Shown: piece after piece, positions 3,393-51,103 of the stretch
Position numbering within the stretch: the stretch's first letter is position 1
Layout: each line of letters begins with the position of its first letter
Source: a virus
Length of the DNA stretch: 56,806 nt
IMG/VR virus record: IMGVR_UViG_3300010373_000054
Span: 1 to 56,806 of that record
Reading direction: 5' to 3' (one strand)
Notes under the pieces: model-generated
Told to the model about the DNA's origin: nothing
Databases searched by the model: none
What the model saw: only the letters and a program-made list of their open reading frames with translations
Made by a program: the position numbers and the translations under genes

Positions 3393-4280
3393 TTATTCGA
3401 AAAGTTTTTCAATCCCTTTCTTTACAGCCGGGATCGTGATAAGAGCGTAAATAGCAACACCCATGACGCCAAGAACAAGAGCAAGTTGCGCGCCCCAATG
3501 AAGGCCACCAAAACCAAGCATAGGAGCGGCGGCTAGAACACTGCCCCAAGTCCAAGTTCTTGTTTTCTTAAGGACTGGTTTATCAGCTTCTTTACCAGCA
3601 TCAGAAATTTCATGTTTAACCTCTTCAGGTGTTTCTTCAGGAACCAAAATAGGTGTAGATTCTACCACACTTTCTTGTTTTTGTCCAACGTTTTCTACTC
3701 CATAACCTTCGGCAATAAGTAGCTTTTCGAAAGATCGTGCATATTCTGCAATACGATCACCCATCTTCTTGCCGTTATCAACCTTGTTTTTGTCGCCATT
3801 AATAATAGCACGAGCATTGAAATAATCGCTCTTGGAAAGTGTGATGTAATCTGACAACTTCTTGCCAGTAAACCAACCTTCTTTCATGCCACGTAGCATA
3901 ATCAAAGTTGCATATTCAAGTTCCATTACTTTCGAAGGACTTTTTACAAAGTCAACGCCAAGCTCTTTCTTTGCTTTTGCATAATTATCTTCATGCGTAA
4001 GCTGAACATAACCCCGACCAAAGAATCCAGAAGTCCAGTAATCTTTTTTAACCCAAGAAAGTTGACCTTTCTTGAAAGCATTAGTCAAACGCGATTTAAC
4101 CGTTGCATCTGAAACCGTTGTTTCTGTTGGCTTCTGTGTCTCTTTAATTGGCTTGATAGTATGCCAAGTCTCGTGATATGCTGTGGATAAAACATAAGCT
4201 AACTCGTTTCGAAGAAAGCCCATCTCTTTTGCGATTTTAATGATATATCTTGAATCGCCTAAATCTAAATTTATTGTCAT
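3393..4280 (-). CDS. endolysin, GH19-like, with C-terminal membrane anchor
   Basis: 295 residues. Residues 30-150 match the GH19 lysozyme/chitinase-like endolysin fold: AYHETWH (E37) and KE47 supply the catalytic glutamates, and FGRGYVQLTHEDNY is the substrate-groove signature. A charged linker (about 190-240, rich in E, P and K) leads to two hydrophobic segments (about 244-258 and 263-283). It would cut peptidoglycan while tethered to the inner membrane, or carry a holin-like part. The Shine-Dalgarno (GAAAG) is weak. A divergent copy of its first 21 codons lies 565 bp upstream beyond an HNH gene. Confidence 0.85.
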   Translation of the reverse strand: MTINLDLGDSRYIIKIAKEMGFLRNELAYVLSTAYHETWHTIKPIKETQKPTETTVSDATVKSRLTNAFKKGQLSWVKKDYWTSGFFGRGYVQLTHEDNYAKAKKELGVDFVKSPSKVMELEYATLIMLRGMKEGWFTGKKLSDYITLSKSDYFNARAIINGDKNKVDNGKKMGDRIAEYARSFEKLLIAEGYGVENVGQKQESVVESTPILVPEETPEEVKHEISDAGKEADKPVLKKTRTWTWGSVLAAAPMLGFGGLHWGAQLALVLGVMGVAIYALITIPAVKKGIEKLFE

Positions 4281-4314
4281 TGACTTTTCTTTCTTTTAAT
4301 TTTATCAAACGTTT

Positions 4315-4782
4315 ATGAAAACGCTAGAAGATAGATTTTGGAATAAGGTTGATAAACGTTCTGTTGATGAATGTTGGTATTGGAATGGATATCGTGACAA
4401 ATTTGGTCACGGTCAAATAGGATTAGGGAGGAGAAATGAAGGCTTGATATATACTCATAGACTTTCATACGAACTTCACAACGAAGTTAAAATTGACGCA
4501 AATTTGTGCGTATGTCATAAATGCGATATCCCTTATTGTGTAAATCCAAAACATCTTTTCTTAGGTTCTAAGAAAGACAATTCTAATGATATGGTTTCAA
4601 AGGGTAGGCATACTTATGGAGAAAAACAGCCAAATTCTAAATTGAAAGAGGTTGATGTCATTAATATAAGAAAAATGTATTCATATGGTGGATATTCTCA
4701 AGCAGATATATCTAAAATTTATGGAGTGACCAGAACTTTAATTGGTTTAATAATTAACAAAAAGAGGTGGGGCCATGTTTAG
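4315..4782 (+). CDS. HNH homing endonuclease
   Basis: 155 residues, opposite strand to all neighbours. HRLSYEL then VCHKCDIPYCVNPKHLFLGS is the HNH core with zinc-binding cysteines; GSKKDNSNDM follows as in many phage free-standing endonucleases. The C-terminus (ISKIYGVTRTLIGLIINKKRW) is a helix-turn-helix for target recognition. Such genes spread by cutting an allele that lacks them and being copied in by repair. It sits exactly between the endolysin start and an endolysin 5' remnant. Confidence 0.9.
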   Translation: MKTLEDRFWNKVDKRSVDECWYWNGYRDKFGHGQIGLGRRNEGLIYTHRLSYELHNEVKIDANLCVCHKCDIPYCVNPKHLFLGSKKDNSNDMVSKGRHTYGEKQPNSKLKEVDVINIRKMYSYGGYSQADISKIYGVTRTLIGLIINKKRWGHV

Positions 4783-4845
4783 CCCCATTTCTTTTGCGAT
4801 TTTGATAATATGGCGGCTGTCGCCAATATCAAGACTAATGGTCAT
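4747..4845 (-). pseudogene. remnant of an endolysin 5' end
   Basis: ATG 4845, with Shine-Dalgarno CAGGAG, opens a 32-codon frame whose first 21 residues (MTISLDIGDSRHIIKIAKEM-G) match the endolysin N-terminus (MTINLDLGDSRYIIKIAKEM-G) at all but three. Codons differ at most synonymous positions, so it is not a recent copy of the present gene. The frame then runs antisense through the end of the HNH gene and stops. It may still be translated as a short peptide. Confidence 0.8.
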
Positions 4846-4849
4846 TTAT

Positions 4850-5272
4850 TTATTCTCCTGATAATATTTCTGAAGCTCTTGCTTCACCGAATAGCTGATT
4901 TGCTATCTGCTCAAGCAGCGGCCAAAGCTCATGATCAGAGCGGAATGTTGCAGCAGTTTCGAATATCTTACGAGTACGAAAAGGCTGCGTTGCCATAGCT
5001 TCATTCACCTGATCAGCCTCGGCTTCTGTCAATCTTTCCCACAATGTGACAGCTGGCAGGATAGTGACAACCGGCTGAGGTTCGGGAGTTGGCGGCTCGT
5101 ATTCAACCACACGCCCGTTTTCCCATTTCCTAAAGCCAGTATTGTCAATAAATTCCAGCCATTGTTCGTCGGTTATTTCAATAGCACCAACCGGCACTTC
5201 CGGAGTGTGATTGTCCTGCCAATAAAAAGCGGTTGGGAAGCCGCTTTCGTCAAACATTGCAAATTTTGACAT
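4850..5272 (-). CDS. tail fibre assembly chaperone (Tfa-like)
   Basis: 140 residues. The N-terminus (FAMFDESGFPTAFYWQD.. then AIEITDEQWLEF) is the classic Tfa/phage tail protein pattern, followed by a P/Q linker and a helical C-terminus. Tfa proteins help fibre trimers fold and may stay at the fibre tip. Coupled to the fibre gene by TAATG. By eye its base composition is GC-richer than the head genes, as is the fibre gene, which fits joint exchange. Confidence 0.75.
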   Translation of the reverse strand: MSKFAMFDESGFPTAFYWQDNHTPEVPVGAIEITDEQWLEFIDNTGFRKWENGRVVEYEPPTPEPQPVVTILPAVTLWERLTEAEADQVNEAMATQPFRTRKIFETAATFRSDHELWPLLEQIANQLFGEARASEILSGE

Positions 5273-6267
5273 TAGGCCTTACCTCTCGCATACCAACGGA
5301 TATTGCCAACTGTTAGCGGTCCTGATCCGCTCGTACCATTAATGAGACGGCACCAAACAACTTGACCCGTTCTTCGGTCTACTCCCCAATCCCATGATTG
5401 GTAGATTACTGGTGTAAAATTGACTGAGTTCCAATCCGTTAGGAGGGTTGGAATAAAAACAGAAATGCTCCCGAAAGCACGCGGATAAGTAATATTGGCT
5501 CCTCCACCGCTATCCAGTGTCGTTACCTCTCCCCATTGCTCCATTTCACCATTCGGCCAAATAACACCACCATTGGTCACTGTTCCGAACACTTCACCGC
5601 CCATAGCTGTCATCATCGCGGCACCTGTTGATGCGGCCATGAATGTGCGGGCGCGCAAGGTTAAAGGCGTAAGGGCAGCTGCTGTATCGCTGTAGAAAAA
5701 CGGCATACTGTTTTCCACGGGCGATCCAGCTAGATTAAGCAGTGCAATTGCAGCTGTTGTAATATCGCTCAACGCAAGGTCGCCGTTGGCATCCGTATTC
5801 AGAAGCTTATTTGCAGCCAACGTAAGCGCCGCCAGCTTCGCCAGACTGCTGTTTGGGTCTTGGATACCAAAGGTTGATGGGTCTGCTAACGTCATAGCAC
5901 CCGGACCTGTAAAAATAGGAACTCTATTAGGAGCACCGACAAGAGCCGCCAAAGCCTCAACATTGCCGCTTGTCATAGTCTGCAAAAGCTGTCTTACTGC
6001 TGGATAATAGCCAGTGTCGTAAGGAGTAAACTGAATCTCATAAGCTGCCGCCGTTTGTGCATCTCCCTGCCAAGGATAAGCAAGTGTAAGGCTAGTGTTG
6101 CTTTCAACAGAAAGAATTCTTACACCATCACCTTTATGTGTTCCAAATATATCGTTAGCTCTAATTGAGCTAGTCCATTGTGTGCCTTGACCTGTTACAA
6201 CGGTTCCACCATTCGCAACTGTTGCTGTTCCAGTATTATAATAACTCTGATCAATATCAATTGCCAT
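5272..6267 (-). CDS. tail fibre / receptor-binding protein
   Basis: 331 residues from ATG 6267 (AGAGG nine bases upstream; TTG 6273 is the alternative). The N-terminus (TGTATVANGGTVVTGQGTQW) is a beta-sandwich seen in phage baseplate and fibre proteins and should attach the fibre. The middle is Ala/Leu-rich. The C-terminus (GEMEQWGEVTTLDSGGGANITYPRAF, then NGTSGSG..IRWYARGKA) matches the gp53-like fibre tip domain that binds the host surface. Followed by its Tfa-like chaperone. Confidence 0.8.
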   Translation of the reverse strand: MAIDIDQSYYNTGTATVANGGTVVTGQGTQWTSSIRANDIFGTHKGDGVRILSVESNTSLTLAYPWQGDAQTAAAYEIQFTPYDTGYYPAVRQLLQTMTSGNVEALAALVGAPNRVPIFTGPGAMTLADPSTFGIQDPNSSLAKLAALTLAANKLLNTDANGDLALSDITTAAIALLNLAGSPVENSMPFFYSDTAAALTPLTLRARTFMAASTGAAMMTAMGGEVFGTVTNGGVIWPNGEMEQWGEVTTLDSGGGANITYPRAFGSISVFIPTLLTDWNSVNFTPVIYQSWDWGVDRRTGQVVWCRLINGTSGSGPLTVGNIRWYARGKA

Positions 6268-6460
6268 TGTCAATTACCTCTGATTTCACTACTGGCACTC
6301 CTTCATTCTCATCTTGAGAAATAATGTCTTCCAGTTCTTGAATTTTTGCTTGCTGAACATAAGCCATTTGGGAATGACCAAGGGCGCGATTACGCCAAAA
6401 TTCAGCTAACGCTTCCGCCTCTCTTATGGCAACTTCAGGCGATATATTAATTTGTTTCAT
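6257..6460 (-). CDS. small helical protein of the tail region
   Basis: 67 residues, predicted mostly helical with many alanines and charged residues (AIREAEALAEFWRNRALGH). Its 3' end overlaps the fibre start by 11 bp. Function not recognised; position suggests a fibre or tip accessory. Confidence 0.65.
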   Translation of the reverse strand: MKQINISPEVAIREAEALAEFWRNRALGHSQMAYVQQAKIQELEDIISQDENEGVPVVKSEVIDNGN

Positions 6461-12065: not shown

Positions 12066-15000
12066 ACTCTACTTCTCCTTCTAGGATTCATTTGGATTTC
12101 TTGCATTCTATCAGGGAGAAGGCTGTTATATTCAGCCATGCCTTGTTGCGTAACATCACGGCTAACACTGTAAGAAATTTCTTGAACAGCGGCACGCCAA
12201 TTACCATCTTCGTCAACGTAATTCCTTACACCAACGTCAACACCTACACGTTGAGAACCACCGCCAATAGAGCCAGCACGACGAGACAAAGAAGAATTGT
12301 TTACAGCAACGCCACTTGGAACATAACCGCCACTTGCATAACCCCTCTTACCCATTCTATGAAGGGCTTCAAGGTTTCCAAGACCAATATTCTTAGTTGC
12401 CTGTTTAGACATGACGTATTCGCCGCCATGAACAACACCTTTTGGCTCATACTTGCCACCATCACCAGTGTAACCACCGTCAGCAAAACCAAAGATTTTA
12501 CCAATAGCGCCAAAGCCACCAGAACCAGAAGCACCAAATAGAATGTCAAGACCAATCTTGAGGAAAGCGTCAGCAAGTTTACCAAGGGCATTTTGCAATG
12601 CTTCTACGGCTGATTTACCCTTGACAAGATCAGAAACAATTCCAGCACCAGCAGACCTAGAAGCTTCACGGATTGTATTCCATTGTTCTTCTAATTCTTT
12701 GTTTCCTTCTTTAAGTTGGTTTTGGTTTGCAACAGCAGCACCATAAGAATCGGCAAGGAAGTAAATGTCTTCGGCCTGCTTTCGAGCTTTTGGAGAAAGT
12801 CTATCGAAGTCACCAGCAAGCAATTCTTGCAATGTTAGTTCTTCTTTTGATACTTCCATATTAGCACGTTTTGCGTCAGAAAGCAACTTTTGCGCCGTTT
12901 CTGCTTTAGCAAGTGCAAGGCCATAATCATTTACTACAGGGTTGAATTGCTGAAGAATTTCTTGTTCTGCTTGCAGCAAGGCAATTCGTTCTTGAGTAGA
13001 GCGAACTTCCTTCTGGTAGTCGTCAAGCTTTTCTTTCTTTTCTTTTGGCTTCTTCTTTGATTCGCGTTCCGCTTTACGTTCGTTCTGACGGTCAATATCA
13101 CCCTGCAAACGAGCAAGTGCAATCTGGTTGATTTGCTCTTCTGTTAGGTCTTTTTCGTCTTTTTTAGCTTCTTTACGAACTTGCTCACGAAGCTTGGAAA
13201 GCTTATAGTCTCTATCGTTAAGAGCAGCGGACTTCTTTTGCTCTTCAACGTATGCCTTAGCGTCACGATCTTTATAGAATGGAGCAGCATCCGGCCCTAA
13301 TTGACCATTATCAACACCATCAACATTTACTGCTTTAAGTTCACGAGAACGGGCGATAGCAAGATTAAGCTTGCCGACCAAAGTATCAAGGCTTTGGAAG
13401 AATCCACCCAAGTTAGGGCTAATACCACTAAGACTTTCAATTGTCTTTCTAGTTTCTTCCGTAACTTCTCCAGTTTCAATAATCTTTTTGATTGCAGTAT
13501 CAAGAGAATCGGCTTGCTCCTGACTCAAGAAACCTTGATCTTGGAAACCCTGAACACTATTTCTCAAGCTTTCAAATTGAGAATTGATTTCAAGAAGGCC
13601 GGGAACTTCACCCAAAGAAATAAGATATGTGTTAAGATTGTTAACCTGTTCTACTAGTTCTTCTGCCCTATCAGCAGCATCAGCCACAGGCTTTGTAATA
13701 TCAGTGTTTCTGATTTCTTCAAGTCTGATCTTTGCAGTAGCAGCAGAGATTTCAAAGTTCTTAAAATCATTAAGGACTTTCTCAATTCCCGCAGCGCCTT
13801 GCTTATCGTTCACACTAGCCCAAAAAGTGATTGCAGAATTTCTAGCCTGATCAATTACAGCAGCAAAGTTATTCTCATTACCAAGAAGCGCCCAACCTTC
13901 ACGAACATTATCAATTTCGTCACGAATCTGTTGAATCTTTCGGCGTCTTGATGCATCAGAGAGATTATCTGTTGCTTTGGAAGCCTTATCAATTTCTTCA
14001 GCGGTTTTAAGCGAGACGATACCAAGCTTAACCATTTCCGCTTGAAGGGTAGCAGTTTGAGCTTCGGCATTAGCAGCGGAAGAAATATAAGAATAAAGAG
14101 CAACGCTTGCAAGACCACCAATGATAGCAGTCAAAGGACCAAGGGCCGCGCCAAGAGCGCCAAATGCAATAGAAGAAGAACCGGCTGTAGCCGAAGCCAC
14201 TCTAAGAGAACGTGTAAACGTCAACAATTGAGAACCCATATGGCCAATGTTGTTAATCGCTGTTCCTATCTGCCTTCCAATAAACACGCCAGCCAAAACA
14301 GCAGCAAATTTAAATGCAACGTCAGCAGCAGTGTCAATATTGTTTGCAAGTTTTGTTAGAGCCGAAGTAATAACAGCACTTGCGCCTTGAGCTTTATCAG
14401 CCTGACCAATGTATTGAGTCAGTGCATTGCTAACTCTTGTTATGCTTTCTCCGATGGTTGCTGTAGTCGTATTAAAGATAGCGTTGATATTCTGTTCAGC
14501 ATTTAGAATGCCACGGAAAACACGATCCGTTGTAAGCTTACCTTCAGCGCCCAAATCTTTAAGCTTGGCAATAGTTACACCAAATTCATTAGCGATTGCT
14601 TGAGCTACGAGAGGAGCGTTTTCACGCAAGGAGCGAAGTTCGTCACCCTGAAGGAAGCCGGAACCCAAAGCCTGACCAAGCTGGAGAATACCCGCCGCTT
14701 GTTCCGATGCAGCAGCGCCACCAGCCTTAAATGCTTTGTTGACAGTATCAGTTGCCCTTGCTACTTCTTCTTCGCTCTTAGCAACATCTTTTGTTGATCG
14801 AAGAATACGAGCATAAAGGTTTACCGTTTCACTGATTCCAGAACGTGACTGATTAGCCAAATCGTTAAGCTGTTCGAGTGATCTTGCTTGCCTGCCAGCT
14901 ACTTGAGAAGCGGCGGCGATTTCGTTTCCTAGTCGCGTCCAAGTATCAGCATAATTGATAAGCTCTTTTGTTCCAAGATAAGCGCCTACGGTTGCGAACA

Positions 15001-50400: not shown

Positions 50401-50628
50401 TCAAACTCCCCTTCCATTAATGACAAAAAATGTATCTCGAATGTCGTTAACCTGAATCCGAAACTTCTCTTCGTTCTTCTGAACGTTTAGCGCAAGATCG
50501 TAAGGCGAGTATCCGGCAGCTTTTTCTTTAAGTTTCTTAGCATTGTCTTCCTTAGCATTACGGTATTCATCTAGCAAGTCTAAATGCTCATCGAATTCAC
50601 TTTTGCTAACTATTTTATTTAAACCCAT
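50401..50628 (-). CDS. small helical protein
   Basis: 75 residues, charged and helical (FDEHLDLLDEYRNAKEDNAKKL). Start overlaps the end of the HNH gene. Confidence 0.62.
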   Translation of the reverse strand: MGLNKIVSKSEFDEHLDLLDEYRNAKEDNAKKLKEKAAGYSPYDLALNVQKNEEKFRIQVNDIRDTFFVINGRGV

Positions 50629-51103
50629 ATTTTATTTCTCCTTCCTCTCTAGCTTTAATAGCTTCTTCTTTGGCATTGAATCTGCCTAAATGTATCATTT
50701 TTCTATTTACTGTTATAGTGGCGACCCACTTCTTTCTTTTTGTATCAAAATGAACGCCCGTAAATCCACTTTTGTTATTAGTGCTAATGTTACAATTTCT
50801 ACCATTTACGATAGCAGAAACGTCCCTTAGATTTTCGATTCTGTTATCATCCCTCTTTCTATTAATATGGTCTACATATTTAGGAATGTAACCAAATTCA
50901 TATAAGAAGGCCCATCTGTGCGCAAAATCAACAATATTATTTATTTTTATAGAAATATAGCCACTTGTTTTAGACAAGTGTCCAGCTTCCTTCCCTACGA
51001 ACTTTGATATAAATTCTTTGCGCCTTGATTTATTATATATCCAGAAGAATTTTCCCGTATCTTTATCGTAAAGAATCCAAGTTTTCAATTCTTCTCTTGT
51101 CAT
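50615..51103 (-). CDS. HNH endonuclease with AP2 domain
   Basis: 162 residues. AHRWAFLYEFGYIP..VDHINRKRDDNRIENLR is the HNH core; NKSGFTGVHFDTKRKKWVA..IHLGRF is the AP2 DNA-binding domain. A free-standing homing endonuclease in the early region. Unlike the one at 4.3 kb it is on the strand of its neighbours and coupled to them (ATGA). Confidence 0.88.
   Translation of the reverse strand: MTREELKTWILYDKDTGKFFWIYNKSRRKEFISKFVGKEAGHLSKTSGYISIKINNIVDFAHRWAFLYEFGYIPKYVDHINRKRDDNRIENLRDVSAIVNGRNCNISTNNKSGFTGVHFDTKRKKWVATITVNRKMIHLGRFNAKEEAIKAREEGEIKYGFK

Follow-up and report, generated by a model that had tools for sequence, protein, structure and literature searches.

In a viral genome from the IMG/VR collection (record IMGVR_UViG_3300010373_000054, whose full stretch of 56,806 nucleotides is called the window below), an HNH endonuclease gene separates an intact endolysin gene from a 21-codon copy of the endolysin's own 5′ end (Table 1). 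How did one gene come to have two starts, and which of them did the phage possess before the endonuclease gene arrived? The endolysin itself is recognizable by an endolysin match to phrog_181 (E = 1.5e-24) and by a match to PF00182 that falls under the gathering cut-off (E = 8.7e-5).

Table 1. Parts of the endolysin–HNH locus, in window positions.
Feature	Position	Strand	Remarks
Intact GH19-like endolysin gene	3393-4280	-	
Endolysin, codon 22 to stop	3393..4217	-	GH19-like catalytic part and C-terminal region; GC 40.5%
Working 5′ end, codons 1-21	4218..4280	-	GC 30.2%; candidate substitute start, presumably imported with the HNH gene
Gap between the divergent endolysin and HNH starts	4281..4314	.	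34 bp; holds the weak A/G-rich endolysin ribosome site
HNH_3 endonuclease gene	4315..4782	+	155 aa; antisense to the endolysin; PF13392
Hairpin TGGGGC..GCCCCA	4768..4787	-	near-symmetrical, terminator-like; at the junction of HNH 3′ end and remnant
Remnant, displaced endolysin 5′ end, codons 1-21	4783..4845	-	GC 41.3%
AGGAG Shine-Dalgarno of the displaced start	4855..4859	-	9 nt from the ATG, within the end of the upstream gene

The remnant, MTISLDIGDSRHIIKIAKEMG (4845-4783, minus strand), and the working start, MTINLDLGDSRYIIKIAKEMG (4280-4218, minus strand), agree at 18 of 21 residues and at 45 of 63 nucleotides, confirming the second start that the preliminary description had placed beyond the HNH gene. 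The codon positions that differ are 11 of the 21 third positions, five first and two second positions. The same codon is used in only 8 of the 18 codons that encode an identical residue. The earlier proposal that the starts come from two distinct alleles of a single gene is supported. The earlier contrast in ribosome sites also stands, as AGGAG (4855-4859) serves the remnant, whereas the working start at 4280 is preceded by a mere A/G-rich stretch, AAAGAAAG, which makes a weak site. When the endolysin protein was searched against its own genome, the remnant was retrieved at E = 5e-6, and the working gene and the remnant were the only two places matched in the virus record. Compared with each other, the two flanks of the HNH gene scored 92, more than every one of 1500 mismatched pairs (maximum 62). 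The remnant frame enters the HNH 3′ end and terminates after 32 aa, which excludes a complete gene at the second copy. An independent conserved small gene at this place, considered in the preliminary description, was dropped, as the sole similarity found for the remnant was to endolysin starts. Because the two copies do not differ in codons 15-18, codon 14 and codon 21 are both possible breakpoints. The hairpin at 4768-4787 (one found against 0.4 expected in shuffles) faces fibre-gene transcripts heading to the endolysin, which it might separate from the operon upstream.

The HNH protein matches PF13392 (HNH_3) with E = 2.5e-6 and 27.5 bits, the curated cut-off being 24.8. In 38 aligned relatives, H68, C70, D71, C75 and H80 are invariant, and H48 and N77 are kept in at least 90%. 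The match and the conserved H, C and N residues together place the protein in the HNH_3 endonuclease family. An HNH/zinc part is followed by C-terminal helices of the helix-turn-helix type, and the structure was predicted with a pLDDT of 95.7. No PDB chain matched the protein by sequence up to E = 1; the top solved-structure match of the model was a weak one to I-HmuI (1u3e; Foldseek E = 0.012, prob 0.98, 19% identity). I-HmuI, a phage HNH homing endonuclease, resides in a group I intron. Such an intron around the window HNH gene was rejected, since no self-splicing RNA or intron family was detected at E ≤ 1 within 3900-5300 and the HNH gene runs antisense to an endolysin that is itself whole.

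Relatives that lack the HNH gene can tell which of two starts is native. Vibrio phage 1.079.O, which carries an HNH gene, was compared with the HNH-free phages 1.067.O and 1.003.O; its order is upstream flank, remnant, HNH gene, new start and SSB body. The upstream flank (194/200 nt), the remnant ATGGCATCACGCGG (14/14 nt) and the SSB body (246/250 nt, with zero mismatches in the first 44 nt) are as in the relatives, while the new SSB start, ATGAGTAGTAGAGGGATA, agrees with them at only 7 of 18 nt, its six codons encoding MSSRGI for MASRGV. A second comparison was provided by the family of locus L115, in which the upstream sequence is identical at 40/40 positions to that of L219; against the HNH-free relatives, the remnant matches at 40-44 of 48 nt, the new copy at 28-31 of 48 and the body at 327-376 of 400. 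In both cases, these alignments identify the remnant with its upstream flank as the recipient's own start, and they confine the foreign segment to the first 6 or 16 codons of the working gene, adjoining the HNH gene. The HNH gene and the substitute start therefore form one block between two native segments. The preliminary description had taken the remnant for the foreign allele and the fibre side for the recombination side; these two loci, where the remnant and upstream flank are native, speak for the reverse.

A terminase locus (L039) fits that earlier history better. There, L221, a phage without the HNH gene, has the working allele over its whole length (98% aa), and the remnant resembles a different allele, as would result either from a long copied tract or from two alleles brought together. 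A search of the phage collection, and searches of IMG/VR with the endolysin, HNH and tail-tip proteins as queries, gave no close HNH-free relative of the window phage; searches for an HNH-free site likewise returned no close copy for the SSB locus L169 or for L154, and the relatives of L043, a second endolysin locus, and of L095 are too distant to tell the native start. By its composition and by analogy with the other loci, we infer that the window remnant is native and that the start at 4218-4280 was imported.

In terms of base composition, the preliminary description had noted a GC-richer fibre side extending up to the remnant. The fibre-side genes are indeed richer (46.8-47.7%), but the remnant itself (41.3%) lies near the endolysin body (40.5%). 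The AT-rich block at odds with the endolysin is made up of the working start, with 25.6% GC in codons 1-13, and the HNH gene, with 32.7%. None of the in-frame 36-nt windows of the endolysin body is as low in GC as codons 2-13, but such a low value is reached at 2 of 25 gene starts in the window. AT-rich starts are common in this phage, and composition alone is a hint rather than decisive. Across 11 loci, GC was lower in the new copy than in the remnant in eight, equal in one and higher in two. Separately, the 3′ part of the tail-fibre gene and the gene next upstream from the remnant make up a GC-rich island at 4850-6100 (45-54%, with the genome at 40%), possibly a swapped fibre module.

The arrangement recurs elsewhere. 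A screen in which the translated left flank of each HNH locus was compared with the right covered 80 IMG/VR loci around related HNH genes, 65 loci from bacterial and archaeal genomes and a few others. Its top match was L043, which has the antisense layout of the window and in which the endolysin copies share 25 of 31 residues with 19 of 31 third positions changed. In a plain six-frame version, scores of at least 50 were obtained for 13/150 HNH and 31/567 control flanks (p = 0.11); this version was noisy, with many low-complexity matches in control genes, and reliance was therefore placed on a test tied to start codons and run in either orientation. Of the 147 HNH loci, 13 have start-anchored duplications, as do 3 of the 545 control genes (Fisher p = 4e-7); at a stricter cut, the figures are 9/147 and 0/545. 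Two of the 13 (L183 and L188) are tandem HNH genes and not targets, leaving about 11 target-gene duplications; two extra cases, L148 and L124, were recognized via gene identity or relatives and not by score. Tandem or repeated HNH genes, at L063 as well as at L183 and L188, score in such screens without a target-gene duplication.

Duplicated targets include endolysin, an SU10-type adaptor (L095), SSB (L169, L124), terminase (L039), DUF5131 genes (L148, L167) and genes without a name (L084, L115, L154); at L070, the 3′ end is duplicated instead. At several same-strand loci, the displaced native start continues into the HNH frame as a fusion; among the loci other than the window, displaced starts are HNH-fused or stop-ended, with no peptide in common. 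In five same-strand loci (L148, L167, L084, L124 and L039), the last HNH codons, around a conserved W-K/H motif, contain the ribosome site of the displaced gene, so that the HNH 3′ end also serves as the leader of the new gene. The majority of HNH_3 loci examined have no detectable duplication. For example, the T7 HNH genes 2.8, 3.8 and 7.7 are plain intergenic insertions, and no duplication was found at the intergenic HNH genes of T7 and T3. In the Xanthomonas phages SAC, Olaya and CP2, insertions lie before SSB and a remnant is not recognizable; the SAC HNH gene upstream of SSB (L123, 1441-1900) is broken by two in-frame stops, and CP2 has an HNH gene at the corresponding place. Another endolysin locus, L023, has an HNH gene downstream of the endolysin (5926-6414).

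The closest relative found for the window HNH protein is that of L043 (50% identity), likewise sited in an endolysin. In a quick tree, these two are sisters (support 95), as are the proteins of L148 and L167 (support 97), which lie in DUF5131 genes in different bacterial phyla; such pairing by target is as expected if the protein determines the target. The duplication label is scattered over the tree, with 13 changes among 15 rows, and the arrangement is thus not limited to a single clade.

On this evidence, the unit is probably a homing element built on a free-standing HNH gene and equipped with a replacement for the displaced gene end, and the HNH homing gene is the likely agent behind the two window starts. 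The HNH protein would cut endolysin alleles close to their 5′ end, and repair off an element-bearing phage would copy in the HNH gene together with divergent, cut-resistant first codons. These substitute codons would join the recipient's gene body in frame, and the recipient's own start would end up beyond the HNH gene as the remnant, presumably so in the window and demonstrably so at the Vibrio SSB and L115 loci. The substitute end is probably resistant to cutting; it would keep the target gene whole and make an intron or intein unnecessary, and the remnant could act as a second homology arm in the next round. In the window, the HNH gene runs divergently from the endolysin on the antisense strand; at other loci the two run in the same direction, often with an in-frame fusion of the HNH gene to the displaced native start.

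Three other explanations were weighed. In the history given by the preliminary description, a related phage had its endolysin interrupted by the HNH gene past codon 21; a later, separate recombination then set the fibre side, remnant and HNH gene beside an intact endolysin with its own 4280 start. The GC-richer fibre-side genes (47%, above the rest) are in keeping with it, as is L039, where the working terminase allele exists intact without an HNH gene and the remnant resembles another allele. However, both decisive comparisons place a few foreign codons by the HNH gene and leave remnant and body native, and the window remnant fits the endolysin body in GC, not the fibre genes. The history also requires a split, non-functional intermediate plus an additional event, whereas a single homing event copying the HNH gene and substitute end leaves the same footprint without a separate recombination step; we regard it as improbable.

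That the 32-aa remnant frame is retained as a leader peptide or decoy start tuning endolysin expression would suit its strong ribosome site, its intact frame and the terminator-like hairpin directly behind it. This is very unlikely, given that the final residues of the frame are antisense HNH sequence and that displaced starts elsewhere are HNH-fused or stop-ended and share no peptide. Scarcely any credence is given to an ordinary intergenic homing gene lying next to a chance or unrelated partial duplication: plain intergenic HNH_3 genes such as those of T7 do exist, but the copies abut the HNH gene, the layout is found at 9/147 HNH loci and 0/545 controls at the strict cut, and a gene of the same type is affected at the locus of the nearest HNH relative.

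A homing gene that lands in a conserved gene must spare that gene's function, which introns and inteins manage by splicing. Bringing along a replacement gene end is a third solution, known already from the nuclei of yeasts and the mitochondria of fungi. In the yeasts Torulaspora and Lachancea, WHO elements replace the 3′ end of FBA1, with cleavage shown experimentally (PMC7282813). Like the phage loci, they place an endonuclease gene, in either orientation and without splicing, between a full-length gene with a substituted end and a displaced fragment (PMC7282813), and the window has this layout, with its HNH gene flanked by the intact endolysin on one side and the displaced endolysin 5′ end on the other. 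In WHO elements, the substituted end is cut-resistant (PMC7282813), a property that the phage ends would share by inference. WHO elements are yeast nuclear and encode an intein-derived endonuclease with a zinc finger (PMC7282813), whereas the phage elements encode HNH_3 proteins and affect mostly 5′ ends of many target genes. Assignment of the window protein to the WHO family proper was rejected, HNH_3 being the sole Pfam family found and PDB sequence matches being absent up to E = 1. Similarly, fungal mitochondrial mORFs replace carboxy-termini, namely of atp6 in Allomyces and of atp6, atp9, cox2 and nad3 in Glomus (PMC3630166). As in the phage loci, an endonuclease ORF is inserted along with a foreign version of the gene end, the native end stays, and the protein is kept while the nucleotides diverge; unlike them, mORFs are mitochondrial, of the LAGLIDADG or GIY-YIG type, and act at 3′ ends (PMC3630166).

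Free-standing phage homing endonucleases also lie near or in conserved genes and spread via break repair, but the relevant passages describe them as intergenic or gene-splitting (T4 seg/mob, PMC2988022; PMC10448857), the T4 review speaking there of split genes (PMC2988022). The passages of these two sources on duplication, remnants and recoding, the latter source dealing with phage homing endonuclease genes near essential genes, contain no substitute gene end (PMC2988022; PMC10448857). In ShiLan, an HNH insertion likewise sits in a phage gene (methylase) without an intron or intein; according to the sections concerned, it differs in being read through in frame within the host protein, and a substitute gene end is not described there (PMC11855218). 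No earlier phage example of gene-end-replacing homing was found in the full-text literature searched, which covers subscription journals thinly and leaves priority unproven.

Taken more broadly, we lean towards the view that phage HNH_3 genes include a recurrent, splicing-free homing class, in which a nuclease is paired with a cut-resistant 5′ (rarely 3′) substitute for a specific conserved gene. This would be a WHO-like mobility, evolved independently of the fungal systems, that repeatedly swaps the starts of conserved phage genes. The footprint in phages with HNH-free relatives would make the substitute-end strategy general and would offer a small system testable by crosses. For annotation, homing scars may underlie displaced starts, odd N-terminal fusions on HNH proteins and 5′ ends that are short and divergent.

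Two further features of the window were noted. Between positions 1 and 25000, nothing matches the phage collection except 12414-12488, 75 bases within the tape-measure gene that share 91% identity with two Klebsiella phages. The window has another HNH endonuclease gene (phrog_99) at 50615-51103 on the minus strand; its flank comparison scored 32, with no duplication beside the gene.
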